A stretch of 36,909 nucleotides of DNA. Origin: a virus. Location: positions 1-36,909 of IMG/VR virus record IMGVR_UViG_3300025645_000193, one strand, 5' to 3'. The notes under the pieces are model-generated. The model saw nothing but the letters and a program-made list of their open reading frames with translations. It was not told the origin of the DNA and ran no database searches. The position numbers were made by a program, and so were the translations under genes. Positions within the stretch are counted from its first letter, which is position 1, and each line of letters begins with the position of its first letter. Positions 440 through 34,805 of this stretch are shown here, one piece after another.

Positions 440-2098
440 ATGGACAACAACAAAGCATTACTGTTGGCTAAAGAGAAGTGGCGTAGGGATAAAGAAAAAG
501 CCTACGAAAATGACTACAAACTCTTTGCCGAAGAACAAGTTAAGATCAGACCGAAGGATGTAACTCGAGGTATGGTCCCCTTTGTGTTCAATGAAGCTCA
601 GGATTTGATCCACGAGAAGATTGAAGAACAAAGAAGTAAGACAGGAAAGGTACGAGCCATTATACTCAAGGCCCGACAGCAGGGGATAAGTACCTACTGC
701 ACTGGGCGAGTTTTCTGGAAAACCAAATATATGCCTCTGTCAAGGTCGGTCGTAATGGCTCACGACTCGGCTACTTCTGAAGCACTCTTTACGATGTCTA
801 AGGATGTACATGCTAATGTACAACCAATCTTCCAACCTACACTGGCTAGATCAAACGCTAAAGAGATTATCTTCGTAGAACACAGAGAAGACGCAGATGG
901 AGTAAGGTACGAAGAAAAGCGCGGCTATCGCCTATACACGGCTGGTTCGCCAGAGGCTGGTCGGGGTACTACTCCAACAGTTGCTCACCTATCAGAAGTT
1001 GCCTTTTGGCAATTCGATGAGAAGATACTTGCAGGTATGTTCCAAGGTATCCCCAATTCCCCCGGAACTGAGGTTATCCTTGAGAGTACCGCTAATGGTA
1101 TCTCAGGTGAGTTTTACCGTCTATGGAAGTCTGCTGAAAAAGGACTAAATGAATATGTACCTATCTTCATACCTTGGTTCATAACATCTGAATATAGAAT
1201 GGATGCACCGGAAGGGTGGGAGTTAGAGGAAGACGAACAGGGATATGCTGATACTTACGGTCTTAACCTAGATCAGATGTATTGGAGAAGAATGAAGATC
1301 GGAGAGTCCGGTCCAGTTAAGTTTCAACAGGAGTATCCAGCTACGGCTGAAGAAGCGTTCGTAAGTACAGGATCAAATGTATTTGACGTTCCAACACTCA
1401 ATCTGTATGAATCTAAAGCTCCAATAGCACGAAGGCGTCTAATGGAAGGTTCTACATATTTCGATCTGCATCCACAAGGAGAGCTAACAGTTTTCAGAGA
1501 ACACAAGCACAATGAGAAGTTTGTCATTGGTGCTGATGTAGCACTTGGAGTAGGTCAAGACTACTCGGTAGCTGTTGTAATGGACTCTGAAAGAGAGATT
1601 GTAGCTAAGTATAGAAACAACCGCATGGACCCAACGAGGTACGGCGAATTGCTATTCTACTTGGGTCGAATGTATAACCACGCATTACTTGTCGTGGAAA
1701 GTAACAGTATAGGCGTAGCTCCACTAGCTCGTATTAAGAGCATGAACTACCCAAATCTATATTACCAGACTAACCTTGCAAAGATGATTGATGAAGAAGG
1801 CGACAGACCGGGATTCAAAACTACGGTAAGTACTAAGCCAGCCATCATATCAAATCTTAAAAATGCAATCAAGGAGAGAGACATTAGGATCAACGATCAA
1901 GAAATTATCGATGAACTTAAATGCTTCATAGTTACCGATGGAGGTAAAATGGAAGCGATGAGCGGAGAGAATGACGACCAAGTCATGGCTCTAGCCATCT
2001 GCCTTGAAGGTTACAGAACTCATCAACATAGACTATCTGCTACCCGACAAGGGTTCGTGCAGACAGCTTTGCTTGCTGACGAAACAAGCTGGTTCTAA
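440..2098 (+). CDS. terL: Terminase large subunit (DNA packaging ATPase-nuclease)
   Basis: TerL powers genome translocation into the procapsid at the portal and cuts concatemers. Visible ATPase features are a deviant Walker A (KARQQGIST, 77-85), a Walker B region ending in SE instead of DE (HLSEVAFW, S185-E186) and a coupling motif (LEST, 214-217). The RNase H-like nuclease domain follows, with its acidic residues at D366 (GADVALG), E420 (VVESN) and D512/D513 (ENDDQVMAL). The length of 552 aa is normal for a complete large subunit. The start at ATG 440 has a weak AGG-type site and may be translated in coupling with the gene upstream. It heads the packaging and head genes, as in many podoviruses. 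The family assignment is secure; the packaging mode (cos, pac or terminal repeat) cannot be read from it. Confidence 0.95.
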   Translation: MDNNKALLLAKEKWRRDKEKAYENDYKLFAEEQVKIRPKDVTRGMVPFVFNEAQDLIHEKIEEQRSKTGKVRAIILKARQQGISTYCTGRVFWKTKYMPLSRSVVMAHDSATSEALFTMSKDVHANVQPIFQPTLARSNAKEIIFVEHREDADGVRYEEKRGYRLYTAGSPEAGRGTTPTVAHLSEVAFWQFDEKILAGMFQGIPNSPGTEVILESTANGISGEFYRLWKSAEKGLNEYVPIFIPWFITSEYRMDAPEGWELEEDEQGYADTYGLNLDQMYWRRMKIGESGPVKFQQEYPATAEEAFVSTGSNVFDVPTLNLYESKAPIARRRLMEGSTYFDLHPQGELTVFREHKHNEKFVIGADVALGVGQDYSVAVVMDSEREIVAKYRNNRMDPTRYGELLFYLGRMYNHALLVVESNSIGVAPLARIKSMNYPNLYYQTNLAKMIDEEGDRPGFKTTVSTKPAIISNLKNAIKERDIRINDQEIIDELKCFIVTDGGKMEAMSGENDDQVMALAICLEGYRTHQHRLSATRQGFVQTALLADETSWF

Positions 2099-2746: not shown

Positions 2747-3032
2747 TGGATTACTAGACAAACTATTCGCGCCACTCGGACAACAGGTAGTTGATCCTAA
2801 TGGACAGGTATCAGGAATGATTAACCCACAGGCTGCAGCTATTGCTGAAGCTAAAAGGTTAGCGGAACTAAAGAAACAAGAAGAGATGTTAAGACAGCAG
2901 TCCCTTATGGAAGCTGCAGCACAAGCATCACCCGCACCAGTAGGTGCTGGAAAATCTTCTAGGTTTAACCCATTTGTAATGCTGTTCGGTGATCCAAGAG
3001 ACCCGAGTAATACTGGCCTACTGGGCAAATAA
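2739..3032 (+). CDS. Small putative virion protein, function unknown
   Basis: The product has 97 residues. A short hydrophobic start (GLLDKLFAPL) is followed by an Ala/Glu/Lys-rich helix (about 32-65) and a Gly/Pro-containing tail ending in NTGLLGK. It overlaps the endolysin gene by eight bases and ends 10 bases before the portal start, so it is translated with the head genes. Composition and position suggest a minor structural or portal-associated protein. No family was recognised. The - strand reading frame opposite it is a shadow, because this frame has the ribosome site and the operon direction. Confidence 0.65.
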   Translation: MANGLLDKLFAPLGQQVVDPNGQVSGMINPQAAAIAEAKRLAELKKQEEMLRQQSLMEAAAQASPAPVGAGKSSRFNPFVMLFGDPRDPSNTGLLGK

Positions 3033-3042
3033 GGAGATACCA

Positions 3043-5292
3043 ATGGCTCATAAGAAGCTCACAGATGAAGAGTTTCTGGCAGAGATCGAACAGGTACGCA
3101 CTTCAGTATCTGATTATACCCTTGGTAACTCCTCTCTAGAGGATGTACGTAACCAAGCTACATATGAGTATGCTGGTCTAGCTAAAGGTCACTTAACACC
3201 TCAAGGCGTTTCCACCATTGTTGACTCTTCCACTACGGAAGTTGTAGATGGGTATACTGCGATCTTGTCAGAACTGTTGTTCGACAATAACAAAATAGCT
3301 AACTTCACACCACTATCTGAAGAACCTAAAGAGGTAAGCCTAACCAAGAAAGCTGAAGACCTAACTAACTATGAGATATTCACAGTTAATGAAGGTTGGG
3401 TGAAGCTTAATACTTGGACCAAGGCTGGACTACTCTGGAAGAACTCCATAATCCGTTGGGATTGGTGTGAGGACTTTAGGTACGAATTCAAAGAGTATGA
3501 TGAAGTTACTGAAGAAAAGCTAGACGAATTACTTGGTGATGATAATGTAGAGATCGTAGGGGACCTAGTAGCGGAACCTTCTTCCGTAGAAGTGTCTCCG
3601 GGTGAGTTTGAACAGATTATCGTATACAAAGATGTTAAGCTTAAGTGTAAGTATGATGAGTCAGGTGTACGTTTCAACGTAGTGCCACATGAGAACTTCT
3701 CTATTGACCGTAATGCTAAATCACTTGATGACTTCTCGTACATAGGTATTGATGAGGATGATGTAACTAAGAGCGATCTTCGTGTCAGATTCCCAGATGT
3801 ATTCACAAAGGACTTCGACAAGTGGGATGAACTAGATGGAGATTCATCTAAGACATTCTGGACAGAACGTTCTATCCGTAAGGAAGTTGTAGGTGAATCA
3901 TACAATTCAGAACTTAATAAGCATATCTCCAACCTAGATGAGAACATGTCCTTCAATGTTACTGAGTGTTGGGTATTTGCTGACAGAGATGGTGACGGTA
4001 TCTCAGAAATGAGACGTGTTGTATACTCTGGGTCTATGATTATACTTGATGAGTATGCGGAAGAAGTGCAACTAGCATCACTATGCCCAATCGAGATACC
4101 ATATGAGTTCTATGGCCTATCTATGCCAGACGTTACACGCTCATCCACACTTACTTCCACAGCGATCCTTCGGGGTTTCGTTGAGAACGTATATCTGACT
4201 AACTTCTCGCCAAGAATGGCTGATCCAAATGTAGTTGACTTCTCTGCGCTTCAAAATATGAAGCCTAAGTCTATTATTCCTACTGTTGGTAACCCAGCTG
4301 GCGCAGTTCAAATGTTACAGCCTGAAAATATAGCTCCCGGAACAGTTCCACTGCTGGAAACCATGCAAGTTCAAAAAGAACAAGCCACTGGACTATCAAA
4401 AGCAGCTCAGGGACTGAACGATGACCTATATGTATCGGGAAATTCAGAAAGTAAGGTAGCAAGGGTACAGTCTGCCGCTCAAACACGAATTCAGCACGTT
4501 GCAAGACGCTTCGTACAGACTGGAATTAAGCGTTTTGTAAAAGGTGTCTACAAAACTATCAAGAAGAATGCTTCTGGTAACCGTGGATACATTGATCGTG
4601 GCGGTGTATACCGTACACTAGACGTAAAGGACCTCCCAGATACAATTAATTTTAATGTGACTGCTAACCTAGGGGAAAACTCTAACCAGAATCTCCGAAT
4701 TAAGTATGAAGCCGTAGCTGCAGTTCTGCAGAGGCTCGCTGAGGGTGGTCGTCAAGTTGTAATTAAGGAGACAGCTGATGCAAGGCTCGCCTCTATGGCT
4801 ATTGCTGCACTCGATCTTGATCCTTTGGACTTTATCGAAGATTATAACGATCCAAGTTTCGGTGAGAGAGCACAAAAAGCTCGTGAAGAGACTGAATCGG
4901 TTCAGAAGAAACAGCTCGAAATCGAAGAGCTTAAGGCTTCCTACGATGTCTTGGCTAAAGAGGCGAATGCGCGTCTTCTAGCTACTCAAGCTGACAATGC
5001 TATGCAAGATAATGCGAAGCAGTTGGCTATCGCTATGGATACTCACTACCAGAACTGGGCTGAACTGGCGCTCAAGGCCGATAAAGAAGGCACTGCACGT
5101 CCAGAGAAACCTAAGATAGAAGAACTGATACAAGCCGCGTATACTCTTATATCACAGTACGGTCCTTCAAACCTATCTGGTATTCAGGGAAGACTTAACG
5201 AACTAGCTAGTAAACAAGCTGGTTCCGGTAACGACACTGAACGGTCTATGCCGCAACAGCAAGGTCCTCAAGAGGGACCTCAAGGATACTAA
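3043..5292 (+). CDS. Portal protein (P22/podovirus type)
   Basis: The portal forms the dodecameric ring at the head vertex through which DNA is packaged and ejected. It binds terminase during packaging and the adaptor afterwards. At 749 aa it has the size of the large P22-type portals. The N-terminal region LTPQGVSTIVDSSTTEVVDG fits the family's typical S-x-V-x-S/D-x-V-x-[ED] segment. A long helical C-terminal region (about 600-740) rich in Glu, Lys and Ala matches the crown or barrel part, and the last 25 residues are Gln/Gly/Pro-rich and probably disordered. I use ATG 3043, preceded by AAGGAG. The frame is open back to GTG 2989, but that would overlap the upstream gene and lacks a ribosome site. 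Confidence 0.88.
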   Translation: MAHKKLTDEEFLAEIEQVRTSVSDYTLGNSSLEDVRNQATYEYAGLAKGHLTPQGVSTIVDSSTTEVVDGYTAILSELLFDNNKIANFTPLSEEPKEVSLTKKAEDLTNYEIFTVNEGWVKLNTWTKAGLLWKNSIIRWDWCEDFRYEFKEYDEVTEEKLDELLGDDNVEIVGDLVAEPSSVEVSPGEFEQIIVYKDVKLKCKYDESGVRFNVVPHENFSIDRNAKSLDDFSYIGIDEDDVTKSDLRVRFPDVFTKDFDKWDELDGDSSKTFWTERSIRKEVVGESYNSELNKHISNLDENMSFNVTECWVFADRDGDGISEMRRVVYSGSMIILDEYAEEVQLASLCPIEIPYEFYGLSMPDVTRSSTLTSTAILRGFVENVYLTNFSPRMADPNVVDFSALQNMKPKSIIPTVGNPAGAVQMLQPENIAPGTVPLLETMQVQKEQATGLSKAAQGLNDDLYVSGNSESKVARVQSAAQTRIQHVARRFVQTGIKRFVKGVYKTIKKNASGNRGYIDRGGVYRTLDVKDLPDTINFNVTANLGENSNQNLRIKYEAVAAVLQRLAEGGRQVVIKETADARLASMAIAALDLDPLDFIEDYNDPSFGERAQKAREETESVQKKQLEIEELKASYDVLAKEANARLLATQADNAMQDNAKQLAIAMDTHYQNWAELALKADKEGTARPEKPKIEELIQAAYTLISQYGPSNLSGIQGRLNELASKQAGSGNDTERSMPQQQGPQEGPQGY

Positions 5293-22434: not shown

Positions 22435-22935
22435 ATGACTAAAACACTTCTAGAAGTACCAACTAACAAGGTACTAGAGTGCATGCCAATAATTGATAAG
22501 TACGTCAAACCTGCGTATGATCACGGTATTGGGGAAACAAAGTGGGAAACCTTAGTAGCTAGGTCACTAGTTGGTGAGGTACTCATATGGATCGCATTCT
22601 TGGACGGTCAAGTAGTTGGTGCAGCCTCTACAGAAATCATAGAGTTTGATGGATATAGATGCATACACCTTATAACATCAGCGACTGATAATCATGTTGG
22701 CTTCGAGGACTTTCACCCAAGACTTTACGAATATACCAAGTCACAAGGCTGTAGGAATATTCAGTTCTGGGGTAGGAAGGGATGGAGCCGAGCTATCGAT
22801 AAGGTATCAGGTGCTAATAAAGAGAAGTACAAAGAAGTGTACCGAGTCTTTTCAATGGAGATAGACTATGAGTCTAATGACAAGCTTACTGAACCCAGTG
22901 ATGAAACATATAAATCAATGGGAAGCCGCACCTAG
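22435..22935 (+). CDS. GNAT-like acetyltransferase-type protein
   Basis: The product is 166 residues. The order is that of a short GNAT fold: VLIWIAFLDGQVVGAAS (strand pair), then YRCIHLITSATD, a helix around FHPRLYEYTKSQGCRNIQFW, and a final VYRVFSMEIDY strand. The usual acetyl-CoA loop (Q/RxxGxG/A) is not clear, so activity is uncertain. Similar proteins occur beside internal protein genes in many podoviruses, where their role is unknown. It overlaps the next gene by 68 bases. It contains three cysteines, unlike nearly all proteins encoded after it. Confidence 0.6.
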   Translation: MTKTLLEVPTNKVLECMPIIDKYVKPAYDHGIGETKWETLVARSLVGEVLIWIAFLDGQVVGAASTEIIEFDGYRCIHLITSATDNHVGFEDFHPRLYEYTKSQGCRNIQFWGRKGWSRAIDKVSGANKEKYKEVYRVFSMEIDYESNDKLTEPSDETYKSMGSRT

Positions 22936-23620
22936 AAAGGGCGGTGGTGGTAGTAGCTCAGGAACTACCACATCTAAAACTACAATTAATAAAGACTTCA
23001 AGCCAGTAGTTGATACTGGTCTAGATGATCTAAAATCTATGTACGATTCAGGAGCACTCGGTAGAGTAGCTGGTGAGTCTGACCTACAGAGTATGGTATT
23101 CGGACGTGCTGAGGATAGCCTAGATTCTGGTATGGACGCTATGGAAGCAGCTCGTAGATCATATACTGATGCTATGGCTGGTACTGGTCTATTCGACCCT
23201 ACCGACAATGCAGCTATCAAACAAGCCGCTATCGACCAAGCTAAACTTGAGTCAGGTCTTCAGAATGACAACATGGCTAAAGCAGGTATGATGGGATCAT
23301 CGAGATCAGCTATTGCAGCTGGTGATAGAGAAGCTCAGATGGCGAATGTGATGGCACAGCTCGATTACGACCAAAGCAATCTTACCAAGGAACGTGCTAT
23401 GTGGGGTGCAGACTCCATGATGAACTCTGGTACAGGAGAAGCTGGTCTACTGGATGCCTACCTGAATATGGGTGGCGTACAGAGAGATATCGCTCAGGAA
23501 GGACTTGACTCCGAAGCTAAAGGACTTGAGAACTACCTAACTGGTATGCAAGTATTTACACCACTCATGACAGATCAAAAGCAGGTCTCCAATACTAAGT
23601 CTAAATCTGGAGGTAAGTAA
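22868..23620 (+). CDS. Putative internal/ejection protein 1
   Basis: The product is 250 residues: a Gly/Ser/Thr-rich linker at about 24-40, then a long Ala/Met-rich helical region (about 60-215). It resembles small internal virion proteins of podoviruses in composition. The start at 22868 has GGAG seven bases upstream, inside the GNAT-like gene, giving a 68-base overlap. It contains no cysteine. It opens the ejection module and is coupled to the next gene by TAATG. Confidence 0.62.
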   Translation: MSLMTSLLNPVMKHINQWEAAPRKGGGGSSSGTTTSKTTINKDFKPVVDTGLDDLKSMYDSGALGRVAGESDLQSMVFGRAEDSLDSGMDAMEAARRSYTDAMAGTGLFDPTDNAAIKQAAIDQAKLESGLQNDNMAKAGMMGSSRSAIAAGDREAQMANVMAQLDYDQSNLTKERAMWGADSMMNSGTGEAGLLDAYLNMGGVQRDIAQEGLDSEAKGLENYLTGMQVFTPLMTDQKQVSNTKSKSGGK

Positions 23621-24039: not shown

Positions 24040-24456
24040 ATGGCTTTCGAAAAATTAAAACAACGAGGTCCAGCCGCTCCTCTTATGCCAACAATGCAGC
24101 ATAATGCAGCACAGGCAGAAGCACCTACACGTCAGGTAGGACCTGCAGAGAAAATCGCTATGCAAGCTGCATCGGCAGGAGCAAGTAAACTTGCAACTAA
24201 AGGCGCTGAAGCACTCTTCGCTAAGCTGGCTCCAACTGCCGCATCTGCAGCTGCCCCACTCGCTACTGGTGCTGCTGGTGCGTTAGGAGCAGGAGCCGCT
24301 GGTGCAGGAGCCGCTGCAACCGGAGCCGCTGCTGGTGGCGCTGCTGCATCTGGATTAGGCTCTGGACTTATGGCCTCTGCAATGACTAACCCCATCACTG
24401 CTCCACTAGCTATTGGTGCTGCTTTGATTGGTGGTAAAAAGCTGGCAGGTAAGTAA
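24040..24456 (+). CDS. Ala/Gly-rich membrane-active internal protein
   Basis: The product is 138 residues. From about 45 to 135 it consists almost only of Ala, Gly, Thr and Ser with small hydrophobics (AGALGAGAAGAGAAATGAAA). This is a GxxxG/AxxxA-rich sequence able to pack helices in a membrane. It ends in the basic KKLAGK. Such proteins fit the channel-forming core or ejection proteins of podoviruses (T7 gp14 role), though no sequence match to gp14 is claimed. It has no cysteine. GGAGG precedes it. Confidence 0.6.
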   Translation: MAFEKLKQRGPAAPLMPTMQHNAAQAEAPTRQVGPAEKIAMQAASAGASKLATKGAEALFAKLAPTAASAAAPLATGAAGALGAGAAGAGAAATGAAAGGAAASGLGSGLMASAMTNPITAPLAIGAALIGGKKLAGK

Positions 24457-24457
24457 C

Positions 24458-25219
24458 ATGGGTAAACCATCAGCAGAAATGATTGAAGCCGTAAAGGCAG
24501 AAGCAGCAGCCAGAGGATGGTCACCACAAGACCTACTCGGTATTATCGGGTATGAGACTGGTGGAACCTATGATCCTTGGCAGAAAGGCCCTACTACAAG
24601 GTGGGGTGAGCATCGTGGTCTTATCCAATGGGGTGAACCACAACGAAAACAATATGGTGTATCTAAGGATATGTCTGTATCAGACCAAGTTAAGGCTGCA
24701 GGACAGTATCTATCTGATCGCGGACTGAAGTCTGGTATGGGAACACTGCCAATGTATGCTGCTATTAATGCTGGTAATATTGATGCAGTTAACGCATCTG
24801 ACGAGAATAGTGGTGGTGCTCCGGGATCAGTTACCGATAAAGTTCTATCGTCTAACTTCCAAGACCACTTGAGAAACTCAGCAAGCTATCTGGGGGAAGA
24901 CTATGTTCCACCTATTGTAAGTGGAGTTCCGAGAGAAGGTCGTGCATCTGATGAATACAATTCAGCAGAGGGAGTTCCACCAGTACCAGATTCAGTACCA
25001 CCAGTACCAGATTCAGTACCAGTTATAACAGGTAATGAGACTATAGACGGAATTCTGGTTTCAGCCAAAGATTTGGCTATAGAGTCGGCTGTGTCCTCAC
25101 TATTCGGAGGTGGCCAGTCTGACCCACCGCCAAGGGTAGCTGCACCACCACCCCTAAGACCTGTCCAATTCTCTGGACCAGTGTCATTCAAAATTAAACG
25201 TAAGAAGGAGAAAGAATAA
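24458..25219 (+). CDS. Virion lysozyme-like (transglycosylase-type) protein
   Basis: The product is 253 residues. The first 120 have the lysozyme-like pattern of virion transglycosylases: LLGIIGYETGG with likely catalytic E33, then WGEHRGLIQWGEPQRKQYGV (GLIQWGE at 54-60) and a helical end. This would open the peptidoglycan during DNA entry. The rest is a Pro-rich linker with a duplicated VPPVPDS unit and a basic C-terminus (FKIKRKKEKE). I use ATG 24458; the frame is open to 24428, but that overlaps the previous gene without a better ribosome site. It contains no cysteine and is coupled to the next gene by TAATG. Confidence 0.72.
   Translation: MGKPSAEMIEAVKAEAAARGWSPQDLLGIIGYETGGTYDPWQKGPTTRWGEHRGLIQWGEPQRKQYGVSKDMSVSDQVKAAGQYLSDRGLKSGMGTLPMYAAINAGNIDAVNASDENSGGAPGSVTDKVLSSNFQDHLRNSASYLGEDYVPPIVSGVPREGRASDEYNSAEGVPPVPDSVPPVPDSVPVITGNETIDGILVSAKDLAIESAVSSLFGGGQSDPPPRVAAPPPLRPVQFSGPVSFKIKRKKEKE
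24977..25018 (+). repeat. 21-bp tandem repeat, two copies, in the Pro-rich linker
   Basis: 24977-24997 and 24998-25018 are identical and encode a repeated PPVPDSV unit. It is a local duplication in a flexible linker between the lysozyme-like domain and the basic tail. Confidence 0.9.
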
Positions 25220-27123
25220 TGGACTTTTCTAAAATGATTGGTAATATATTCCAGAGGGAACAAGTACCAATGAATCAATCTCCTTCTATGGTAAAACTGG
25301 AGGAAGGGGAAGAGTTAGTCACACCTAATATGATTAACGAACAAATGGCAACTCCGTATCAGGTTCCTATGCCACAGGGTCAAGGGAATGATATTGTACT
25401 ACCACCTAGAGAGACAAACCCACTAGTTCAACTACGGAACCTAGGGCTTAAGGGAGTAGATGCGATGAACAGACAGGTAGAAATCAAGAACTCTACATAT
25501 GATGAAGTTCCTAAGATAGCTACTGGTATCCCAGACCTTGAAGCACCTGAATCACCTGTAGTACCAGAGATGTTCGAAGAGAGCGTCATTCCACCAGAAA
25601 AGAATGAGACAATTAAGGATTTATCAACTGATGAGGGTATTCAGAATTACCTAGACCAGTATAATATGGAATCATTCGGCTCCTCAACGCTCTCAATGGG
25701 AGACTATGAGGGTGTATATGGTGGCTACAGTGATCTACAGCATGAAACTAGAAATCCTAAAACTCGTTCAAGAGTTATCGATGAGAATGGTGATCGTGTA
25801 AATCCCGGAAACATGGAAGATATTGAAGAGGCTAACAAAGTACGTCAGCGTCAGCGAGCTATCATGGAAGGTAAGCCAGTAGTTGATACTGATATCGATC
25901 CATCTTCTATTACTGCTGAAGAGGCTGAACAGAGCCAAATGGTAGCTGATGAGCTTGTTACTCCACAGGGACCAGATGGTATTCCTATGGTAGACTCCGA
26001 GCCGCCTGTCCCAACACCAAGCGGTGGTAATGTTAAAGTTACTGCGGCAGATGTAGATACAGTAAAGAAAGAAGACCCATCTGGTTGGGCTAAGGCTATG
26101 TCTTGGATCAATCGTACATTCGGGATCACAGGTCAGGACCTTAATCGTTTTGCCCTACTGTATGTTGGTAGTCGTATTGCTGGTTACGACCACGGGGTTT
26201 CCATGAGTTGGAGCTTCGGTGTAGCTGCAGAGGGACTTACTAATCGTTCTGACATCTCCAACAGACTAGCTGGTCAGGGTAAGTACACACCCAAGTCTAT
26301 CGAGAAGTATCGCCTATCTGGTAATATAGGTGAACTTGTTGCTGTAACTGATCCTGCTAAGTCTGGTGTTACATATGATCGCACTAAGCGAAAGGTAACT
26401 AAGAATGGTAAGATCGTTTACGAAGCTACTAACAACGCAACTGGTAATAAGACTTACATCGACTTCCAAGGAAACGAGGTTGGCGCTGAGATGGTTTATG
26501 ATCCAAACGATCCAAAGGATGCAACTGGTATCGCGGCTATCCGTAAGAAGTCAGTTGACCTTCATAGTAAGGTTATTACTCAGAAGATTAGTGCAGATGC
26601 TGAAGTGGAAGGTGAATACAATACTCCATTCCTACAGGCATCAGCAGAAGCAGAGGCTAATATAGCTGAAGACTATATTGAATCATTCCGTCAGGAACTT
26701 GGAATTGATGTGGACTCTGGTGTTAGTTCTCGTATTATAGCTAATGCTTATGACTCAGCTAAGAGTTGGTCACAAGCTAATGGTAATGCTCCAGTAAAGA
26801 GCTTACTGCCATTCATCGACTCCCAGATCGTGTATATGCGTCCAGATGTTAAGTGGACACAGGAACTACGTTCTAACGGAGACAAGCTACAGCCAGATCA
26901 AATTGCTGGACTGAATAGGGACATCATTAATTGGTTGTCTCAAGAAGAAGAGTATGTAGCTAAAGAAGGTAAGCTAGATCGTGGTACTGTTATTAATACA
27001 TTCATGACTGATGCTTATAAGGCATATCAAGCTCTCGATCCTGTAGATAAGAATGAGTATACAAAGAAGGATGGGTTCTACTCATTCCTCAAGGTTACTC
27101 TTACTACAAATTCTGAGAAATAA
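25219..27123 (+). CDS. Large internal/ejection protein 2
   Basis: The product is 634 residues. The N-terminal 290 residues are Pro/Glu-rich and probably extended. About 293-360 is a helical block with WINRTFGITGQDLNRFALLY and GSRIAGYDHGVSMSWSFGVA, which may contact membrane. The rest is mixed and mainly helical. It contains no cysteine. Its place between the virion lysozyme-like gene and the nuclease-bearing ejection protein supports an internal virion role. No family was recognised. TAATG overlap with the gene before gives coupled translation. Confidence 0.65.
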   Translation: MDFSKMIGNIFQREQVPMNQSPSMVKLEEGEELVTPNMINEQMATPYQVPMPQGQGNDIVLPPRETNPLVQLRNLGLKGVDAMNRQVEIKNSTYDEVPKIATGIPDLEAPESPVVPEMFEESVIPPEKNETIKDLSTDEGIQNYLDQYNMESFGSSTLSMGDYEGVYGGYSDLQHETRNPKTRSRVIDENGDRVNPGNMEDIEEANKVRQRQRAIMEGKPVVDTDIDPSSITAEEAEQSQMVADELVTPQGPDGIPMVDSEPPVPTPSGGNVKVTAADVDTVKKEDPSGWAKAMSWINRTFGITGQDLNRFALLYVGSRIAGYDHGVSMSWSFGVAAEGLTNRSDISNRLAGQGKYTPKSIEKYRLSGNIGELVAVTDPAKSGVTYDRTKRKVTKNGKIVYEATNNATGNKTYIDFQGNEVGAEMVYDPNDPKDATGIAAIRKKSVDLHSKVITQKISADAEVEGEYNTPFLQASAEAEANIAEDYIESFRQELGIDVDSGVSSRIIANAYDSAKSWSQANGNAPVKSLLPFIDSQIVYMRPDVKWTQELRSNGDKLQPDQIAGLNRDIINWLSQEEEYVAKEGKLDRGTVINTFMTDAYKAYQALDPVDKNEYTKKDGFYSFLKVTLTTNSEK

Positions 27124-27141: not shown

Positions 27142-30100
27142 ATGGGCTCTACCCTAGACCCTAAGAAAATTGTAGGAAAGTTGTTCGACGCTTCTGCTGG
27201 TGACAACATGTTCATCGATGGTGATACAGTCCGTACTTCAAGCGGAGAGTCCATTCGTATTGACAACATCAACACACCAGAGGTAGCTCACTCAAGTGAC
27301 TACACTGATGATACCGACTACCATGCAGCAGGACAAGCTTACCATCAAGGTGTGGCTAAGATTGCTCAGGAAGGTGGTTTCACAGATGTCTACAGATCAG
27401 GAAAGAAAGATAAATATGGCCGTTCTATCGGTGATATGGTTAACCCTGATACTGGTGAGAGACTCAGCTACAAGCTGGCCTCTGAAGGATTAACACGAGC
27501 TAACCCATACTCTGACGAAACCTACATCGATCAGAAGATTATTGGTACAGCACAGAGAAACGCGGGAGCCGAGAGAGATGAAGCATCTCAGGAAGCTTTC
27601 GACGTTATCTCAGACTCAATACGTGATAGTAATGGTGATATTAACTTCAAGACACTGGCTCTAGATGAGTCAGAGTATGATCCTGACCTACATGCTGGCG
27701 TAACACTTCGTCATCTTGATAGAACACTGGACAATGAGGCGCTATCACCACTTAGTACTTCCTTCGACACAGCCCTACTCGGTATGAGTGCTGGATTCTC
27801 TGGCATGAAACAAGCTATAGGGTTCGCTACGGGAAACCGTGAGAAGGAGCTACAAGGACAAATAGCTGTAGCTTATAAGCAGGGAGAGCTTGCTAAGAAG
27901 CCTGAAGTACTTATCGACTACAAGGATGTTGACTCTATTAGTAATGCATTTAGTTATGTAGCTAACAACGCAGCAATGTCCTCACCATACATGGCCAATA
28001 CGATTGCAACAGCAGTCGCAGGTAGTGTTGCTGGTTCAGTAATTGGTACAGCGGTAACTCCAGTACTTGGTACTGCAGTCGGTGGTGTCCTAGGTGCAAT
28101 CGGTGGTACAATCGTCGGACTTTCGTCAACTACAGCAGTCTATGCTGGTCAGGTCTACAACTCACAAGATGAGAAGAACTGGCAGGTAGCTATGTCCTCT
28201 GGACTGGCACAAGCAGCTATGGATAGAGTAGGTCTGAAAGGTCTTCAGGTTGGTGGTAAGACACTTAAGGCGGTACTTAAGGAAGGGGAAGATGTACTTA
28301 CGGCTAGATTAGTTGCTAAGGGTGTATCGTCTGCTTCTGCTCGTACACAGGCTAGAGCCACTATCGGTAAGGCTACAAAAACAGAACTAATGGGATTGGT
28401 ACAAGATGCAGATAACATCATTGCTAAACAACTTAGTGCAAGAAATGTTACTCGTGCTCTGCTCAATCGTGCTGCTAAGGGTGCTGGGTCGGAGGCAGTT
28501 ACTGAAGCTGCTCAAGAAACTCTGGCTCAGATTGGTGAAGACTGGAACGAGGAGAATTTCGGTATCCTTGACCACGGTGAATTCAATTCTGAATTCCTTG
28601 ATCGTATCACCAACGCAGCGGTTGCTGGTGGGGCGCTTGGTGGCTCACTTGGCGGTGCTGGTGGCGTGGCTGAAACTGGTTCTTGGGCCAATGCTGCTTG
28701 GAACCGTGGAGAATCAAATAGAAGTTCTTTCGAAGGTGAGTTGGCTAAACTAGAAGGTAACTCTGAGATAGGGGAAACCTTGGACAGTATGAAGCGTAGT
28801 GATGAGACTGGTACTGAGATTATTGACATGGCTTCGGAGCACGTACTCGAGAATAAGGGTCGCGATATGACCGAGAGAGCCGTAGACTCATTCAAGAACT
28901 TACCTATGCTATGGCGTGGGATGATGCGGGCTAGAATGGCTAAGGACTCTCTGATAAAGAGTACCTCTTACAGACAACTAGGTGCTATGTTTGGCGCAAC
29001 AGTTGGTCGCTTTAAGGCTGGTAGAACTTACGAGGAGTCTATGCACTTCCTCAATCAGTCCTATGTTAACCTAATTGGTGATAGTAGCTCTGAGAAGATA
29101 TTCTACAGAGGACTAGCTAAAGGTAATCCAGTTATTGGTGCTAGAGACTCTGCGTCTAAGGCTAAGTTTGGAAGTATCATAAATCAAGTAGATACAGCCT
29201 ACAATGCTTTCCTAGAAGCTAACCCTAAGATGTCAGAACAACAAGCTAATGCTGCATTCGACTGGTCTCGGTGGGACGGAGTTGAGAGCGATGTATGGCA
29301 CAAGTACTCTAAGGACCCTAATAAGAACATGGTTCGTCATTTTGTTGAGCAACGACAGAAGGCAGCTTCTATCATGCGTCAACGTCAGAACATTGCATGG
29401 AACAAGAATGGTAAGGATTCTATCGACCCGATTACTGGAATGACTATACCTTATCAACCACAAGAGAAGATCAAGCGGCTTAGAAACTACTTCGGTAAGT
29501 TCAAGGCCATAAACAGAGAGATCGTCTCAGATAAACGTGCTGACTTCGAACTGCTACTTCGTTCTGAGGCATCCATGTCTAAGTCTGCTGCTACAGACCT
29601 TACTAATAAGATACTAGATGGTGAACCACTAGATGGTCTGGATGAAGGAGTATTCGATCTACTTACTAAAGGCATTCCAGCTACACAAGCTAAGAAGCGT
29701 ACTATGGCACTCTCACAGCACCCTAAGTTCACTGAGTTCTTCCATCAAGACCCATTCCATAACTTCAAGGAAGGGGCTCGTATGGCTGCACGATTTGAGA
29801 CATTCCACAATTATGTGGGTAAGGATAACTGGAGAGTAACACAGCTACTCAAGGAAGCTGAGAAGCAGGGTGTCCCTAAGAAAGAAATCAATATGATGGC
29901 TAAGTCCATCCAGCAGTATCTAGAGGCTCAGTCTGGTAACTATAAGAGACCACCTAAAGGTTCATATGGTGAACGTGCTATTGGTGTTCAACGTACTATA
30001 TTGTTGTGGTCACTAGCTACATCACTACCACTATCAGCACTCTCCTCTACTGTAGAGTTGATGTTGACAGCGGGTGGACTAACCCAGAAACAAATCTTTG

Positions 30101-31164
30101 GTAATATCATGCCTATGAGTATGGAGCTTGCTAAGGGTATGGGTAGGTATCTACATAGAGTAGGTAATGAAGTCTTTACAGGAAGAGAGTATATCCCAGA
30201 GGGGGAGAACATGAAGGTTCTACAGCATCTTGGTTATATGACACAAGAGGCTGGTGCAGCATCTACAGTTGGTGCTACAGAGCAGAGCGATTGGGCCAAG
30301 ACTTGGGTTGATCGTTTCTTCAAGGCTAACTTCCTACACGACCTTACCAACGCTAACCGAGCTATGAGACTAGCTCAATTTGGTGACTACACACGAGATC
30401 ACATAGAGATCATTAAGAATAGTGATCCCAAGAGTGAGATGTATAGGTTCTCTAGACAGGAGCTACTCAATCTCGGTGTACCAGTTGATAAGTATATCAC
30501 TCTCTACGCTATGGACGAAGGTTCTATGACTCCTAAGCAGAAACAACAGTACCAAGAGTATGAAGATCAGGCTATGTACAACTTCATTAATCAGACAGTG
30601 GCTCTTCCCGGCACGGCTAATCGCCCTCTGCTATACCAAGACCCAAGGTTAGCACTATTCACTCAGTTCAATGGTTATATAGCTACCTTTACAGCTAACC
30701 ACATCCCTAGACTCTGGGGTGACTATGTGAAACGTGGTAGTCCTGCAATGAAGTACAATACGTTTGCAATGATGACATCCATGATCTTCATGGGTTTCGC
30801 ATCACAGTATCTGAAAGACTGGTTGAAGTACGGTGAACCATCACCTTACCTTAACAGTACTGAGAAACTTCGTCGTGCTGTCAATTCATCTGGCCTACTT
30901 GGTCAGTCAGAAAGAGCACTAAACTTCATATGGCCAACCTTCGAGAAGAGGGATAATGGAATGATTCAGAATACGTTCGAGATGGTTACGGATGAGATGC
31001 CAGCAATGGGTCCTATGCGTAGACTACTCAAGGCCGCTGATTACGCATATGAAGGCAACACTGACATGGCACAGTACAACGCTATGAGGGCAACACCTGT
31101 TCTCGGTCCATTCACTAAGATGGTCCAGAATGCAGCAGGAGTTGACTTTGACATCAAACGTTAA
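27142..31164 (+). CDS. Giant ejection protein with N-terminal staphylococcal-nuclease-like domain
   Basis: The product is 1340 residues. About 15-135 is an SNase-like (thermonuclease) domain: IDGDTVR (D26, D28), RIDNINTPE (R39, N44, E47) and KDKYGR (R94), then LSYKLASEGLTRA. Relative to staphylococcal nuclease, D21, R35, E43 and R87 are present, but the Ca-binding D40 is N44. About 284-342 is a Gly/Ala/Thr-rich hydrophobic stretch that could insert in membrane. A second Gly-rich stretch lies near 490-515, with further hydrophobic helices near 950-975 and 1208-1228. The rest is helical. It contains no cysteine. AAGGAG precedes the ATG. Size, position and composition fit an ejected virion protein (T7 gp16 functional class); the nuclease fusion is unusual. 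Activity is uncertain because of N44. Confidence 0.8.
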   Translation: MGSTLDPKKIVGKLFDASAGDNMFIDGDTVRTSSGESIRIDNINTPEVAHSSDYTDDTDYHAAGQAYHQGVAKIAQEGGFTDVYRSGKKDKYGRSIGDMVNPDTGERLSYKLASEGLTRANPYSDETYIDQKIIGTAQRNAGAERDEASQEAFDVISDSIRDSNGDINFKTLALDESEYDPDLHAGVTLRHLDRTLDNEALSPLSTSFDTALLGMSAGFSGMKQAIGFATGNREKELQGQIAVAYKQGELAKKPEVLIDYKDVDSISNAFSYVANNAAMSSPYMANTIATAVAGSVAGSVIGTAVTPVLGTAVGGVLGAIGGTIVGLSSTTAVYAGQVYNSQDEKNWQVAMSSGLAQAAMDRVGLKGLQVGGKTLKAVLKEGEDVLTARLVAKGVSSASARTQARATIGKATKTELMGLVQDADNIIAKQLSARNVTRALLNRAAKGAGSEAVTEAAQETLAQIGEDWNEENFGILDHGEFNSEFLDRITNAAVAGGALGGSLGGAGGVAETGSWANAAWNRGESNRSSFEGELAKLEGNSEIGETLDSMKRSDETGTEIIDMASEHVLENKGRDMTERAVDSFKNLPMLWRGMMRARMAKDSLIKSTSYRQLGAMFGATVGRFKAGRTYEESMHFLNQSYVNLIGDSSSEKIFYRGLAKGNPVIGARDSASKAKFGSIINQVDTAYNAFLEANPKMSEQQANAAFDWSRWDGVESDVWHKYSKDPNKNMVRHFVEQRQKAASIMRQRQNIAWNKNGKDSIDPITGMTIPYQPQEKIKRLRNYFGKFKAINREIVSDKRADFELLLRSEASMSKSAATDLTNKILDGEPLDGLDEGVFDLLTKGIPATQAKKRTMALSQHPKFTEFFHQDPFHNFKEGARMAARFETFHNYVGKDNWRVTQLLKEAEKQGVPKKEINMMAKSIQQYLEAQSGNYKRPPKGSYGERAIGVQRTILLWSLATSLPLSALSSTVELMLTAGGLTQKQIFGNIMPMSMELAKGMGRYLHRVGNEVFTGREYIPEGENMKVLQHLGYMTQEAGAASTVGATEQSDWAKTWVDRFFKANFLHDLTNANRAMRLAQFGDYTRDHIEIIKNSDPKSEMYRFSRQELLNLGVPVDKYITLYAMDEGSMTPKQKQQYQEYEDQAMYNFINQTVALPGTANRPLLYQDPRLALFTQFNGYIATFTANHIPRLWGDYVKRGSPAMKYNTFAMMTSMIFMGFASQYLKDWLKYGEPSPYLNSTEKLRRAVNSSGLLGQSERALNFIWPTFEKRDNGMIQNTFEMVTDEMPAMGPMRRLLKAADYAYEGNTDMAQYNAMRATPVLGPFTKMVQNAAGVDFDIKR

Positions 31165-31178
31165 CAAGGAGATAGCTA

Positions 31179-34100
31179 ATGGCTAGAATAGGCGCTGGGC
31201 TCGAAGCTCAGAAACTACAAAGAGGCGAGACATCCACGCCAACACCTAGTGAATCATTAAAGACTATTTTACAAAGCACAATCGGTTCTCTCTCTGAGTC
31301 AGTAGACCTTCAGGGAGAGGCCGAGGCTGCTCCTGTAGAACAGGAAACTCGTGAGCCACTAAGCCCTCGTGTTACTGGTTTCAATGAGGATGATACACTT
31401 GTTCCGATTAGTCAGCGCGTGGGTCCAGCTAGTACTGGAGAGTTAAATCCTACGTTCGATGATTGGAGGTCAACTGGTCAACAGACAGAGGGTAGTATAC
31501 CTCAGCCACAGGCACCAGCTTACAAACTAACCAACGAGTCACCACCCGCTGCAATGCTCAACCGAGCCAAGCGGACTGCTGCTCGTATGGACCCATCAAA
31601 TAGCTCTGAGGGTAGCGTTACATTCTCAGGGACACAGGTGGACACGGCTAACCGTGAGGCTTACATCGCTGCCAATAAGAAGATTGATTTGGCTCTAGAT
31701 GAAGAAGAACGTAATGCAGCTAAGAGAGAGCGGTACAAGATCGTTAAGAGTGTCGAAGATAAGAAGAATACAATTCTTCAGACAATGTCTGGTAATCTTG
31801 ATGCTCTAGTTGTCGATCCTACTTCTGGCTTCGCCACACCTGATCCTCGTTTCTTGATTACAGCTCAGATCGCCACAGAGAACGAACTCGATATGATGTT
31901 CCTAGGTGCTCAGGATGAGGTTAATATCCTCGATGAGGATGATATCATCGATGATAATGATCAAGAAGGTAAGGGTATGTACTCTACCGAGCTTATCAAC
32001 CCAGCCGATGCTGCAGAACGCACAGGTAGGGCTATAGGTACTTGGTGGAATGCTGAAAAGGAAGGTAAGACTACAGCATCTAAGATGTCTGGTCTACAGA
32101 ACAAAGATTTAGGTATGCAACACCTTCTGGCGTTCGCTGAAGCTAATCCTGAGATGGTATCAATGGAAAAGGTACGAGTAAATGATAAGGGAAGACCCGA
32201 TGCAAATGGTGAGATCGCACCTTGGAGATTCAGACTGACTCCTTATGGCGCTGATGTACTTGAGCATACAAGGGAGTTCCGTCAGAAAGCACTCGGTATC
32301 AATATTGCTCCAGAGAGCCACCCAGCACATGACGGTCTACAAGCTGATAAGGCGCAGCTTAGACCAGCTTTCCGTAAGAAGGGAGCTATTGGTGGTAATA
32401 GTAAAGACCCATCGTATTCAACACTATCAGAGATTGAAGAAGCCATCTATAACCAACAAGGTGTTGGTCACGTAGTGGATAATCGACGTATGCGTGTAGC
32501 AATGACGTTGCTGTTTCCCACTCTATTTGGTAAAATAGGCGATCCAAATGATGTGTTTGGTGATGGGTTTGGTCTTGGCCGTGAATCCTTCGATACACTA
32601 GTCCGCGAAAAGATGGACCTCGATGGTATGGAACACGCTCAGGCTGTTGATACAGCGGTCAAGATCACCGGGATGAAGAAGAATGATGCAGCATCAGATA
32701 TTAAGACACTATCTATGTATCGTAAAGGTGTAAACTACCTGACATATGCTATGCAACCTCTCGCTGGTCGTCAAATGGTACAGCAGACTGAGTTCAATCC
32801 TACTCGTAAGAAGATTGTTCGTGCTGTTACTCGTGCCATACAGCCAGCTATCATAAGAGGTAGGAGTGGTAGAGTGTATGATGCATACATGAACATCGCA
32901 GCACTTAACTTCGGTAAGGATAACCTTCTTCCAAAGGGTAGAATGGCTGATCTACAAGATAACCGAGCTATGTACTATAGCTGGGGTAAGATTCTTGAAG
33001 ATGCTCTCAATGAGGCATTCCCAGCTAGTTCCTTGGAACCTGCTATGGAAGCTATTGCTAATGGTACTGCCACACCTGATATGGCTCAGAGTCTACAGAA
33101 GTTCACTATGCTCATTAAGAAAGATGAGAACCTTACACCCTTCCTAAAGAGAAAGGGAGAGGATGCTATCGCAGCTATTGATGCCCTGATAGACTTCAAG
33201 AACTTCAACGATGCTATGGATCAAGGTAAGCCATTCAAGACACACTTAAACGGTTATATAGACGGTAAGACCAACGGTGTCGCTAACCAAGGCGCTATGT
33301 TGGGTAACTTGCAGTTGGCGTACAGGGTAGGTGTTCTTCGTGATGATGGTTCTGAGGAAGCAGTTAATAATGGTGACCTCAGAGATTGGATGGAAGAGAT
33401 AATTCTTGATAGACTTATCGCTACACCTACTCCTACTATACCTTCTGATAAGGCTTCTGGTAAAACAGAGAACATCAGAGATGTCCTTAAGGCTGTAGCC
33501 TCATTTAGACCAATCAACAAGACAGTTACTATGGTATTCCCATATGGTAAAGAGCTTGCTGGCCTAAAGGCAGAGATCAGGAAGCACATACCTGAACTTC
33601 GTACAGCACAGCCAGATATCAATTCCAAGATTGAATCTCTTGAAGCTTCTGGTATCACTCTGGATAACTTAGTGGACGCTGCACATGATAGTGTAGTACA
33701 TGCTCTGTTCGAAATCTTTGGAACTGATACATTTAATGCTAGAGGCGTTATGCGCTCCGTGGGTTACATGCATGCCATGTTCGACAAGCTGTTCTCTATC
33801 AGAGGTCCATCTGGACACCGTATTCTTCTCGGACAAGGTCGTCCTGATGAGTCACAAACTCAGACTTCTAAGATCAGAGTTCGTAGTGATAATGTCGATG
33901 CAACAATGAATCTACAAGATTCTCCAATGAGAGCATCTAGTGCTGCTAAGAAGGACGGTGAGGCCGCTGGATACGTTCGTGGTCGTTCGTCTGTTATCCC
34001 TACGCAGTCTATGGATGCCGCAGTTGTAACTCGTACATTCTCAGGTAACTCTTGGAAAGTTATTACCGATGACTCTGTGAATGGTGAGCCTTATGTGTTC

Positions 34101-34805
34101 CAAATCTATGATGCGTATAAGGTTGATGCTAATAGCTATCATTCAGTGTTAAAAGAAGTCAATAAGAACTTCGTAGATATTACTACTCGTGATTGGAACT
34201 TCATTGAAGAGGCTAAGAAAGAGTACCAAAAGTTCAAGGATGATACAAAAAGAGTCCTTGAGTCCGCTCCTGATAAGACGTGGACGTTTAAAGATGGTAC
34301 ATTCGATTACATGCACTCTCTTATGGACCCAGAGTGGACTCCTGTTGGTGGTAATCTTATAGCCCGTAGGAGCGCCATGAAGGCGTTTATTTCTGCGGCA
34401 TTCCCAATCGATCCTGATCGTAATGTCGTCTATAGAGATAATAATATTATGGCTCGTAAGGATAGCGATAAACCTCAGATAGCTAAGGATAGAGTTAGTG
34501 AGTATCAGAAGTACGTCAGTACTCAGGCTTCAATCCTACAAGCTGAACTCTATGAGATTTTCAATGAAATCAGTTCTAGTAATATAAATAGTGATTCTTT
34601 CCTGAATGGTGATTCCATCCCAGAGTTAATTACTTCTAGAGAGGCTTTAGCAATTATTTCTGCTGTTGAAAAGAGGATTCAACTCATGGGTAGACTTCAG
34701 CTGTTCACTGAGAAAACTAATCGTAATCGTAAAATTCTACGAGATAAGGTTCTATCTCAGGAACAGAGAACCGGACTGGGAGCACTTCAATTCTGGGCGC
34801 ACTAG
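31179..34805 (+). CDS. Virion-type single-subunit RNA polymerase (N4 vRNAP-like), compact form
   Basis: The 1208-residue product has an N-terminal region (1-about 430) rich in Pro, Glu and Ser that is not recognised. The C-terminal part has the ordered motifs of T7-family RNA polymerases. GRVY (564-567) matches the xxGR motif, with G in place of the usual D/T. Motif A is DGKTNGVANQGAM (D695). Motif B is RPINKTVTMVFPYG with exact T7 spacing R777-x3-K781-x7-Y789-G790. QSMDAA (943-948) corresponds to the HSQDGS region, and motif C is YDAY with D978 (Y977 replaces His). Separations are close to those of T7 (GR to motif C is about 410 residues, against about 390). It is the last gene of the ejection module, is preceded by an AAGGAG site and has no cysteine. 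By analogy with N4 it may be packaged and injected. N4 vRNAP is about 3,500 aa, so this is far shorter. Packaging is inferred. Confidence 0.78.
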   Translation: MARIGAGLEAQKLQRGETSTPTPSESLKTILQSTIGSLSESVDLQGEAEAAPVEQETREPLSPRVTGFNEDDTLVPISQRVGPASTGELNPTFDDWRSTGQQTEGSIPQPQAPAYKLTNESPPAAMLNRAKRTAARMDPSNSSEGSVTFSGTQVDTANREAYIAANKKIDLALDEEERNAAKRERYKIVKSVEDKKNTILQTMSGNLDALVVDPTSGFATPDPRFLITAQIATENELDMMFLGAQDEVNILDEDDIIDDNDQEGKGMYSTELINPADAAERTGRAIGTWWNAEKEGKTTASKMSGLQNKDLGMQHLLAFAEANPEMVSMEKVRVNDKGRPDANGEIAPWRFRLTPYGADVLEHTREFRQKALGINIAPESHPAHDGLQADKAQLRPAFRKKGAIGGNSKDPSYSTLSEIEEAIYNQQGVGHVVDNRRMRVAMTLLFPTLFGKIGDPNDVFGDGFGLGRESFDTLVREKMDLDGMEHAQAVDTAVKITGMKKNDAASDIKTLSMYRKGVNYLTYAMQPLAGRQMVQQTEFNPTRKKIVRAVTRAIQPAIIRGRSGRVYDAYMNIAALNFGKDNLLPKGRMADLQDNRAMYYSWGKILEDALNEAFPASSLEPAMEAIANGTATPDMAQSLQKFTMLIKKDENLTPFLKRKGEDAIAAIDALIDFKNFNDAMDQGKPFKTHLNGYIDGKTNGVANQGAMLGNLQLAYRVGVLRDDGSEEAVNNGDLRDWMEEIILDRLIATPTPTIPSDKASGKTENIRDVLKAVASFRPINKTVTMVFPYGKELAGLKAEIRKHIPELRTAQPDINSKIESLEASGITLDNLVDAAHDSVVHALFEIFGTDTFNARGVMRSVGYMHAMFDKLFSIRGPSGHRILLGQGRPDESQTQTSKIRVRSDNVDATMNLQDSPMRASSAAKKDGEAAGYVRGRSSVIPTQSMDAAVVTRTFSGNSWKVITDDSVNGEPYVFQIYDAYKVDANSYHSVLKEVNKNFVDITTRDWNFIEEAKKEYQKFKDDTKRVLESAPDKTWTFKDGTFDYMHSLMDPEWTPVGGNLIARRSAMKAFISAAFPIDPDRNVVYRDNNIMARKDSDKPQIAKDRVSEYQKYVSTQASILQAELYEIFNEISSSNINSDSFLNGDSIPELITSREALAIISAVEKRIQLMGRLQLFTEKTNRNRKILRDKVLSQEQRTGLGALQFWAH

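Follow-up and report, generated by a model that had tools for sequence, protein, structure and literature searches.

The last large gene on the + strand of a 36,909-nt stretch of viral DNA (IMG/VR record IMGVR_UViG_3300025645_000193, positions 1 to 36,909, hereafter the window) encodes a protein of 1208 amino acids (aa) at 31179-34805 which, as judged by structure prediction and sequence comparison, is a single-subunit RNA polymerase (ssRNAP). Its active-site residues, its place in an ejection cassette and its lack of cysteine lead us to think that it is probably a catalytically competent enzyme, packaged in the virion and ejected with the DNA, which transcribes the first phage genes before a T7-like RNA polymerase (RNAP) takes over. 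The gene represents a new form, compact and unfused, of the virion RNAP (vRNAP) idea. The experimentally studied vRNAP of the ssRNAP type is that of phage N4, a 3500-residue chain whose passage through the narrow tail is unexplained. A 1200-aa version without fused domains would be a simpler system in which to study enzyme threading and refolding, and would help to reveal the roles of the extra N4 domains. The use of an injected polymerase followed by a T7-like one would also be a wider strategy, with 45 non-redundant members here.

Predicted fold and catalytic residues

An AlphaFold2 model of residues 211-1208, computed with 45 sequences of the family described below, was of good confidence (pLDDT 86.4, pTM 0.87) and showed the right-hand fold of the single-subunit (T7-type) superfamily. 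Foldseek, the comparison proposed in a preliminary description of the window, matched the model in the Protein Data Bank (PDB) to yeast mitochondrial RNAP (8e-16), T7 RNAP (5e-15) and the N4 mini-vRNAP (2e-14). VIA-align gave a Z of 28.5 with T7 RNAP (8dh5_E; 544 residues, 3.9 Å) and of 21.9 with the N4 enzyme (3c3l_A; 721 residues, 5.0 Å). The predicted viral structures that were matched included T7-type RNAPs and annotated virion RNAPs, for example that of phi50-12 (2.9e-15). According to DSSP, D695 follows a strand (model positions 481-484), a helix (567-576) contains K781, and D978 is at the turn between two paired strands (763-773), the placement expected of motifs A, B and C.

In the sequence, DGKTNG starts at 695, R777-x3-K781-x7-Y789-G790 follows, QSMDAA starts at 943, and IYDAYK at 976 contains D978. 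D695, K781, Y789, G790, D946 and D978 are invariant in all 45 non-redundant sequences, despite a mean column identity of 25% in the family alignment; position 777 is R in 38 of them, K in six and S in one. Profile-profile alignment paired R531, D695, R777, K781, Y789, D946 and D978 with T7 R425, D537, R627, K631, Y639, D787 and D812, respectively. Against N4, hhalign in global mode paired R424, D559, R666, K670, D929 and D951, with Y678 off by two. R531, in AGRQMVQQTEFNPTRKKIVR, is conserved in the 43 ungapped sequences out of 43 and is aligned with N4 R424 and T7 R425. Motifs A, B and C and the DxxGR motif of the superfamily were thus all found, with their D, K, Y and D. The other outcome that the preliminary description had considered, a different fold or motifs scattered over the structure, gave way to a confident ssRNAP-fold model with catalytic residues paired by profile with those of T7 and N4.

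That description had also singled out D695, R777/K781/Y789/G790, QSMDAA and D978, all of which are well placed and conserved. It had erred on GRVY at 564-567, which it listed among the landmark motifs of T7-family polymerases but which is not the motif of T7 R425 or N4 R424. We rejected this candidate, as the family has G at 564 in 4 of 45 sequences and Y at 567 in 3 of 45; GRVY is a coincidence, and the true counterpart according to the alignments is R531.

Conventional searches recognized the protein poorly. Used alone, it gave one irrelevant match in Pfam (E 0.017), nothing relevant in a sequence search of the PDB, and a match to PHROG 414, 'RNA polymerase', with an E of 0.0025. PHROG 414 was matched by 18 of 31 family members, PHROG 2206 (virion RNA polymerase) by one and Pfam PF00940 by two of the 31; a PDB profile search with the family gave three matches, none of them to an RNAP.

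Relatives and conserved gene slot

No BLAST-level match to the 1208-aa protein was found in 50,697 phage records, and an initial scan retrieved two contigs with proteins that were 100% and 57% identical. We aligned the T7-like RNAPs of contig L001 (near-identical to the window and carrying the full 792-aa copy), of contig L002 and of roseophage CRP-7, and the resulting profile led to 47 loci. A convergent ORF of at least 650 aa was present within 2.5 kb in all of the 24 loci that had at least 3 kb past the T7-like RNAP gene. By phmmer, these ORFs form five groups, a to e; links join c, d and e to one another, and a (which includes the 1208-aa protein) and b stand separate. The slot has diverged fast into groups that are hardly alike. 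The D, K, Y and D positions of groups d and e align with the catalytic residues, D946 corresponding to L in d and to E in e; the profile alignment of group c covers the K and Y positions only. The global mode of hhalign gave nonsense alignments for groups b, c and d.

A profile built from five group a members yielded 70 viral loci and two genome-bin loci, and removal of copies with at least 92% identity from these 72 loci left the 45 sequences of the family. Lengths range from 1117 to 1386 aa (stop-to-stop ORFs of at least 1000 aa in the 72 loci), shorter ORFs being located at contig ends. The T7-like RNAP gene is convergent with the family gene in 72 of 72 loci. An ejection-type protein of about 1300 aa is encoded directly upstream in 53 of the 56 loci with more than 200 nt of upstream sequence; in the remaining three, this sequence (274 to 728 nt) is too short for an ejection-type ORF to be listed. 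The position behind the ejection proteins, pointed out earlier for the window, is therefore a kept feature of the lineage. The phages concerned are mostly uncultivated, the closest isolate in the phage collection being CRP-7, which is short-tailed (PMC6918029). The proteins of L106, L120 and L097 had no relatives in the phage collection. Eight of 11 closely examined records, mostly chosen as the longest, measured 55-61 kb.

Signs of packaging

Gene slot and absence of cysteine both support packaging and ejection of the 1208-aa protein, as far as can be judged from sequence and by analogy with N4. In N4, the late module ends with the gp50 gene, which is convergent with genes of the other strand. 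Ten more N4-type records were viewed in part: behind the vRNAP gene, nine have genes of the opposite strand and one has tRNA genes. In the window, the 1208-aa ORF starts 14 nt behind the 1340-aa ORF and is the last large + strand gene before opposite-strand genes.

Cysteine is absent from 41 of 45 family members and from 32 of 34 upstream ejection-type proteins, with at most one cysteine in any of them. By comparison, none of the 46 T7-like RNAP ORFs of the same loci is cysteine-free (14 cysteines per 1000 aa), and 29 of 132 other ORFs of at least 250 aa are, spurious ORFs being left in. The proteins of groups b to e are cysteine-free (18/18), as are 11 of 11 N4-type vRNAPs, at 3024-3760 aa each, N4 gp50-gp52 and T7 gp15 and gp16; T7 gp14 has one cysteine. 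In the window, six of the seven ORFs between 22868 and 34805 lack cysteine, the seventh (23620-24039) having one. Thirteen chosen other late ORFs of the window contain 52 cysteines in 6168 aa, from which ten would be expected in the 1208-aa protein; the Poisson chance of finding none is 4e-5.

If the protein is packaged, it would join the rest of the ejection cassette proteins in the virion, pass in a threaded form through the tail with the DNA and refold in the host, where it could transcribe the earliest phage genes. After its synthesis, the T7-like RNAP would transcribe both modules from promoters of its own, as the repeats described below support.

Putative promoters of the T7-like RNA polymerase

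In 9 of 10 contigs, T7-type promoter-like repeats with no more than one mismatch are directed towards terL from a distance of up to 600 nt; terL was assigned by phmmer searches with proteins of the window and of CRP-7. One example, CTAAGTTCCTTATAG, is found in G001-G003 and G007, and in CRP-7 a repeat precedes the T7-like RNAP gene by 9 nt. The contigs that were scanned had also supplied the promoter strings. At up to three mismatches, base-shuffled contigs gave 0-6 matches versus 4-11 in the real contigs, and because of this only matches with at most one mismatch were used. Since T7-type repeats face terL, late transcription already has an enzyme, which is the third argument, beside slot and cysteine, for a virion-type role of the 1208-aa protein.

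The repeats are lineage-specific: CTAAGTTCCTTATAG, GTATATACCCCTTATAG, CGCTAGTCCCTATAG and TAGTCCATTATTAAAAGG were noted (G001-G009 correspond to L136-L144, L147-L164, and CRP-7 to L004, L005). Where the replication-side module of G009 starts, a T7-type promoter match is followed downstream by a 28-nt direct repeat around CCTAGAGTACACTTAGGGATACTTATA (L142:10198-10225 and 10327-10354). The T7-like RNAP is encoded by two ORFs (342 and 390 aa, about 330 nt apart) in L094:10767-13293, L097:10766-13292 and L135:8359-10885, the counterpart in L095 being a single ORF of 731 aa; either an insertion or, as for N4 RNAPII, an enzyme of two parts may account for this.

Weighing of the explanations

Several observations weigh against a packaged polymerase that acts before the T7-like one. 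CRP-7 late proteins are generally poor in cysteine (16 in 6049 aa), and the N4 capsid and gp57 are cysteine-free as well; because of this shared scarcity, the absence of cysteine is not exclusive to ejected proteins, and the mark is strong relative to the T7-like RNAP but weaker relative to structural proteins. N4 E557 (11 of 11 sequences), described as stabilising the phosphates of the +1 NTP (PMC4496689), is replaced by Y693, the family having Y in 42, M in two and T in one of 45 sequences. Close to the start of the replication-side module, 8 of 10 contigs have a T7-type promoter match (one mismatch at most) directed towards it, and CRP-7 has two matches inside this module, which indicates that the T7-like RNAP can also serve it. 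The gene of the T7-like RNAP lies at the opposite end of the module, behind DNA polymerase and helicase and 13-15 kb from the module start in G002, G005, G007, G008 and G009 (readable without joining contig ends). It is therefore not a first-minute gene as in T7, and a starter enzyme, either the virion or the host RNAP, must cross the module beforehand. Finally, no shared N4-type promoter-like hairpin was recognised in 11 contigs (the window itself is devoid of the replication-side module), and hairpin numbers and clusters in these contigs were not generally above those of Markov-resampled sequence.

The far-end location of the T7-like RNAP gene also agrees with the idea that the ejected ssRNAP acts mainly as an entry motor, pulling the DNA in by transcription, early expression being secondary or left to the host RNAP. 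This explanation, to which we give a small share of the probability, draws on the same packaging evidence (cysteine and slot) as early transcription by the ejected enzyme. Host RNAP plays such a role for T7, and the authors of the N4 work leave open whether the vRNAP does likewise (PMC12633501). Nothing in the data separates entry from early transcription.

A second intracellular RNAP, made late from the structural operon and remaining unpackaged, would account for what is predicted to be a full ssRNAP. We find this very unlikely, as 41 of the 45 members lack cysteine, unlike all 46 T7-like RNAP ORFs of the same loci, the gene keeps a fixed place behind the ejection-type protein, and such an enzyme would have no evident job alongside the T7-like RNAP. 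Also very unlikely, and ranked lowest by us, is a structural or ejection protein that has kept the ssRNAP fold and lost polymerase activity. The fast divergence of the slot speaks for it, as does the R found at the position of the motif B lysine in CRP-7 and eight aligned relatives; the family's own catalytic residues, invariant in 45 of 45 sequences that are otherwise so divergent, speak against it. A packaged, active polymerase that transcribes the first genes remains our preferred explanation.

Relation to the N4 and T7 enzymes

Diagnostic positions point both ways: Y693, in place of N4 E557, is unlike N4, and three positions are of the N4 type. K545 (43 of 43 family sequences) aligns with N4 K437 (11 of 11), where the T7-like set has D438 (21 of 21). 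T698 corresponds to N4 T562 (10 of 11), the T7-like set having C (14) or N (7), and Y977 (43 of 45) replaces T7 H811, which is H in 21 of 21 T7-like sequences and F in N4. K437 and R440 of N4 are depicted with the initiating nucleotides (PMC4496689). The N4 residues that read the promoter hairpin, K114, R119 and W129 (PMC4496689), precede the stretch that aligned locally with the family.

Early, small alignments favoured N4, with a profile probability (Prob) of 97.4 versus 10.9 for the lineage's own T7-like set. Once the T7 set had been widened and members added, the Prob values were 97.1 for T7 and 96.8 for N4 in alignment A6, and 96.4 and 97.2, respectively, in alignment A4. Because T7 and N4 were level in the broad sets, we dropped N4 as the nearest kin by profile score and left the kinship undecided. 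The family is one of ssRNAPs with an N4-type context and some N4-type residues, a sister relation to the N4 vRNAP not being shown. The original reading of the gene as an N4-type virion RNAP is supported by fold, slot and residues, but not as regards a closer kinship to N4 than to T7, and several features that define the N4 enzyme were missing. The size that it had stressed, about a third of the N4 protein and near that of the N4 minimal polymerase domain, and the sequence distance from the T7-like RNAP of the same window were both correct.

R424, K437, R440, D559, R666, K670 and D951 of N4 gp50 are aligned in the 1208-aa protein, which is, like gp50, cysteine-free and encoded by the last late-module gene beside ejection proteins, convergent with the opposite strand. 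The two proteins differ in length (1208 versus 3500 aa), and the fused N- and C-terminal domains of gp50 are absent here. The HExxH protease motif of gp50 is also absent, and is present in one of the 72 members; ExDGxxxG (PMC10654107) is missing too, Y693 occupying the position of E. The length of 1208 aa is outside the 2842-3820 aa reported for Schitoviridae gp50 (PMC10654107), and the second RNAP is one T7-like chain here, versus the gp15/gp16 heterodimer in N4 (PMC4496689). The protein is not a Schitoviridae gp50, being too short and without ExDGxxxG or a fused protease. N4-like virion RNAPs are described as occurring only in N4-like phages and prophages, almost always fused to a metallopeptidase (PMC5512222). 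An IMG/VR survey of N4-like viruses excluded vRNAP-related proteins that were shorter than 2500 aa or without ExDGxxxG (PMC10654107). The family fails both filters as given there, and the survey would discard such proteins.

T7 RNAP and its Autographiviridae homologues share the fold and the catalytic residues, and are level with N4 under the deeper profile. They differ in that the family lies in a late ejection cassette, is nearly always cysteine-free, lacks H before the motif C aspartate and has K545 where T7-like enzymes have D. Alteromonas phage R22Y is also reported to combine a shorter vRNAP with a second RNAP in one genome, though this vRNAP has 2083 aa and is compared in that article with an Alteromonas schitovirus (PMC11705849). 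Virion RNAPs outside Schitoviridae have been proposed in podophages for large ORFs of StenR_269, DES1 and Zobellviridae (PMC10747016). The proposal of the StenR_269 type is based on size, cysteine absence and helical content, the AlphaFold models being termed low-confidence (PMC10747016); the passages concerned give no motif evidence. In Poorviridae, an N4-type RNAP was detected by PSI-BLAST (PMC11654794). We found no paper describing the 1208-aa family in the open-access literature, the matches of the broad searches being only partly covered and subscription papers lying outside.

The isolate protein nearest in context is CRP-7 gp33, which occupies the same slot and is cysteine-free, the CRP-7 portal and T7-like RNAP being 46% and 37% identical. 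It differs from the 1208-aa protein, to which it has no significant BLAST similarity, by a weak profile link (Prob 5-6), by an R at the position of K781 and by the lack of an aspartate partner for D695, and it is annotated as hypothetical. A structure prediction for group b (CRP-7 type, 8 sequences) gave a pLDDT of 40.7, and a search for more members of this group returned 10 loci, all on contigs already in the set. Given this low pLDDT, what points to an ssRNAP encoded by the CRP-7 gene is the slot, similarly spaced motif-like strings and the weak profile match. The CRP-7 article, in the passages that name an RNAP, names ORF30 only (PMC6918029). We also observed that K-x3-R-x7-YG replaces R-x3-K-x7-YG in CRP-7 gp33 (L004:17859-21566) and in L022, L018, L050, L037, L019, L027, L016 and L029; neither the K nor the R of this motif B-like string varies among the eight aligned relatives.

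The upstream ejection-type protein

In a 30-sequence alignment, the 1340-aa upstream protein matched columns 185-445 of the N-terminal part of the N4 vRNAP (Prob 86-89, E 2e-6 to 5e-6), and did not match the RNAP and C-terminal parts of N4. Control Prob values were 0.1 (T7-like) and 1.4 (polymerase family). When subgroup alignments were compared with the N4 N-terminal part, Prob was 65.6 for a, 1.0 for b, 14.6 for c, 9.4 for d and 6.7 for e. The group a polymerase family itself did not match the N4 N-terminal domain (Prob 0.3). The N4 enzyme joins its N-terminal domain, its RNAP and a C-terminal domain that is autoinhibitory in one chain (PMC12633501). The weak likeness of the upstream protein to the N4 N-terminal domain is suggestive only, and by it part of the N4 fusion may exist here as two separate genes. 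A further idea, which we offer tentatively and consider rather doubtful, is that of a third lineage of phage RNAPs, in which a stand-alone ejected ssRNAP would act beside a separate ejection protein resembling the N4 N-terminal domain, the giant N4 enzyme having arisen by later fusion, or the parts having been split here. If so, a small ejected polymerase that hands over to a T7-like one would be the basic form of virion transcription.

Genomic setting and other observations

The window carries the late module of a tailed phage, with terminase, SU10-type portal, a fibre gene and three large ORFs. Beyond the 1208-aa ORF, the minus strand encodes small ORFs and then the T7-like RNAP. The features are listed in Table 1.

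Table 1. Coordinates of the predicted polymerase, its main residues and other genes of the window
Feature	Position	Strand	Evidence or remark
Compact virion-type single-subunit RNA polymerase (predicted), 1208 aa, cysteine 0	31179..34805	+	conservation, model, structure matches, profile alignment
Residues 211-1208, modelled part with ssRNAP fold	31809..34802	+	
R531, counterpart of T7 R425 / N4 R424 (DxxGR/TxxGR motif)	32769..32771	+	conservation, profile alignment
K545 to R548	32811..32822	+	K545 aligned with N4 K437, R548 with N4 R440; T7: D438, K441
GRVY 564-567, unconserved in family	32868..32879	+	
D695, motif A metal-binding aspartate (predicted)	33261..33263	+	conservation, profile alignment
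R777, K781, Y789, motif B	33507..33545	+	conservation, model, profile alignment
D946 in QSMDAA, aligned with T7 D787 / N4 D929	34014..34016	+	
D978, motif C metal-binding aspartate (predicted)	34110..34112	+	conservation, model, profile alignment
1340-aa ejection-type protein, SNase-like N-terminal domain, glycine-zipper part with weak similarity to N4 vRNAP N-terminal domain, cysteine 0	27142..31164	+	CRP-7 gp34 homologue
634-aa cassette protein, cysteine 0	25219..27123	+	no family match of note
263-aa cassette ORF, cysteine 0	24428..25219	+	
250-aa cassette ORF, cysteine 0	22868..23620	+	
T7-like RNA polymerase, 3' part, gene cut by contig end	35687..36907	-	
Portal protein	2989..5292	+	Pfam SU10_portal; best isolate match roseophage CRP-7, 46%
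Terminase large subunit	440..2098	+	

A scan for sigma-70 promoters and terminators between 31100 and 36909 of the window gave results at chance. Four contigs (L153:3348-3439, L147:9810-9898, L151:19396-19484 and L136:16383-16546) have, on the replication side, arrays of perfect hairpins, four or five per array, with loops of 3-5 nt. A four-hairpin array is conserved in G001-G003, and G007 has an array of five. In L153, L147 and L151 the four stems are kept in order. The arrays of all four contigs have unlike stems and are not promoter-like; they could be a structured RNA or a control element. A search of L153 against Rfam gave no family match.

Seen by eye, the ORF at 24428-25219 of the window and the one in the same slot of the 57% relative (L002:3429-4199) seem unrelated to each other, and both resemble cell-wall-degrading enzymes. 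A 166-aa ORF of the late region (window 22435-22935) looks, also by eye, like a GNAT acetyltransferase.

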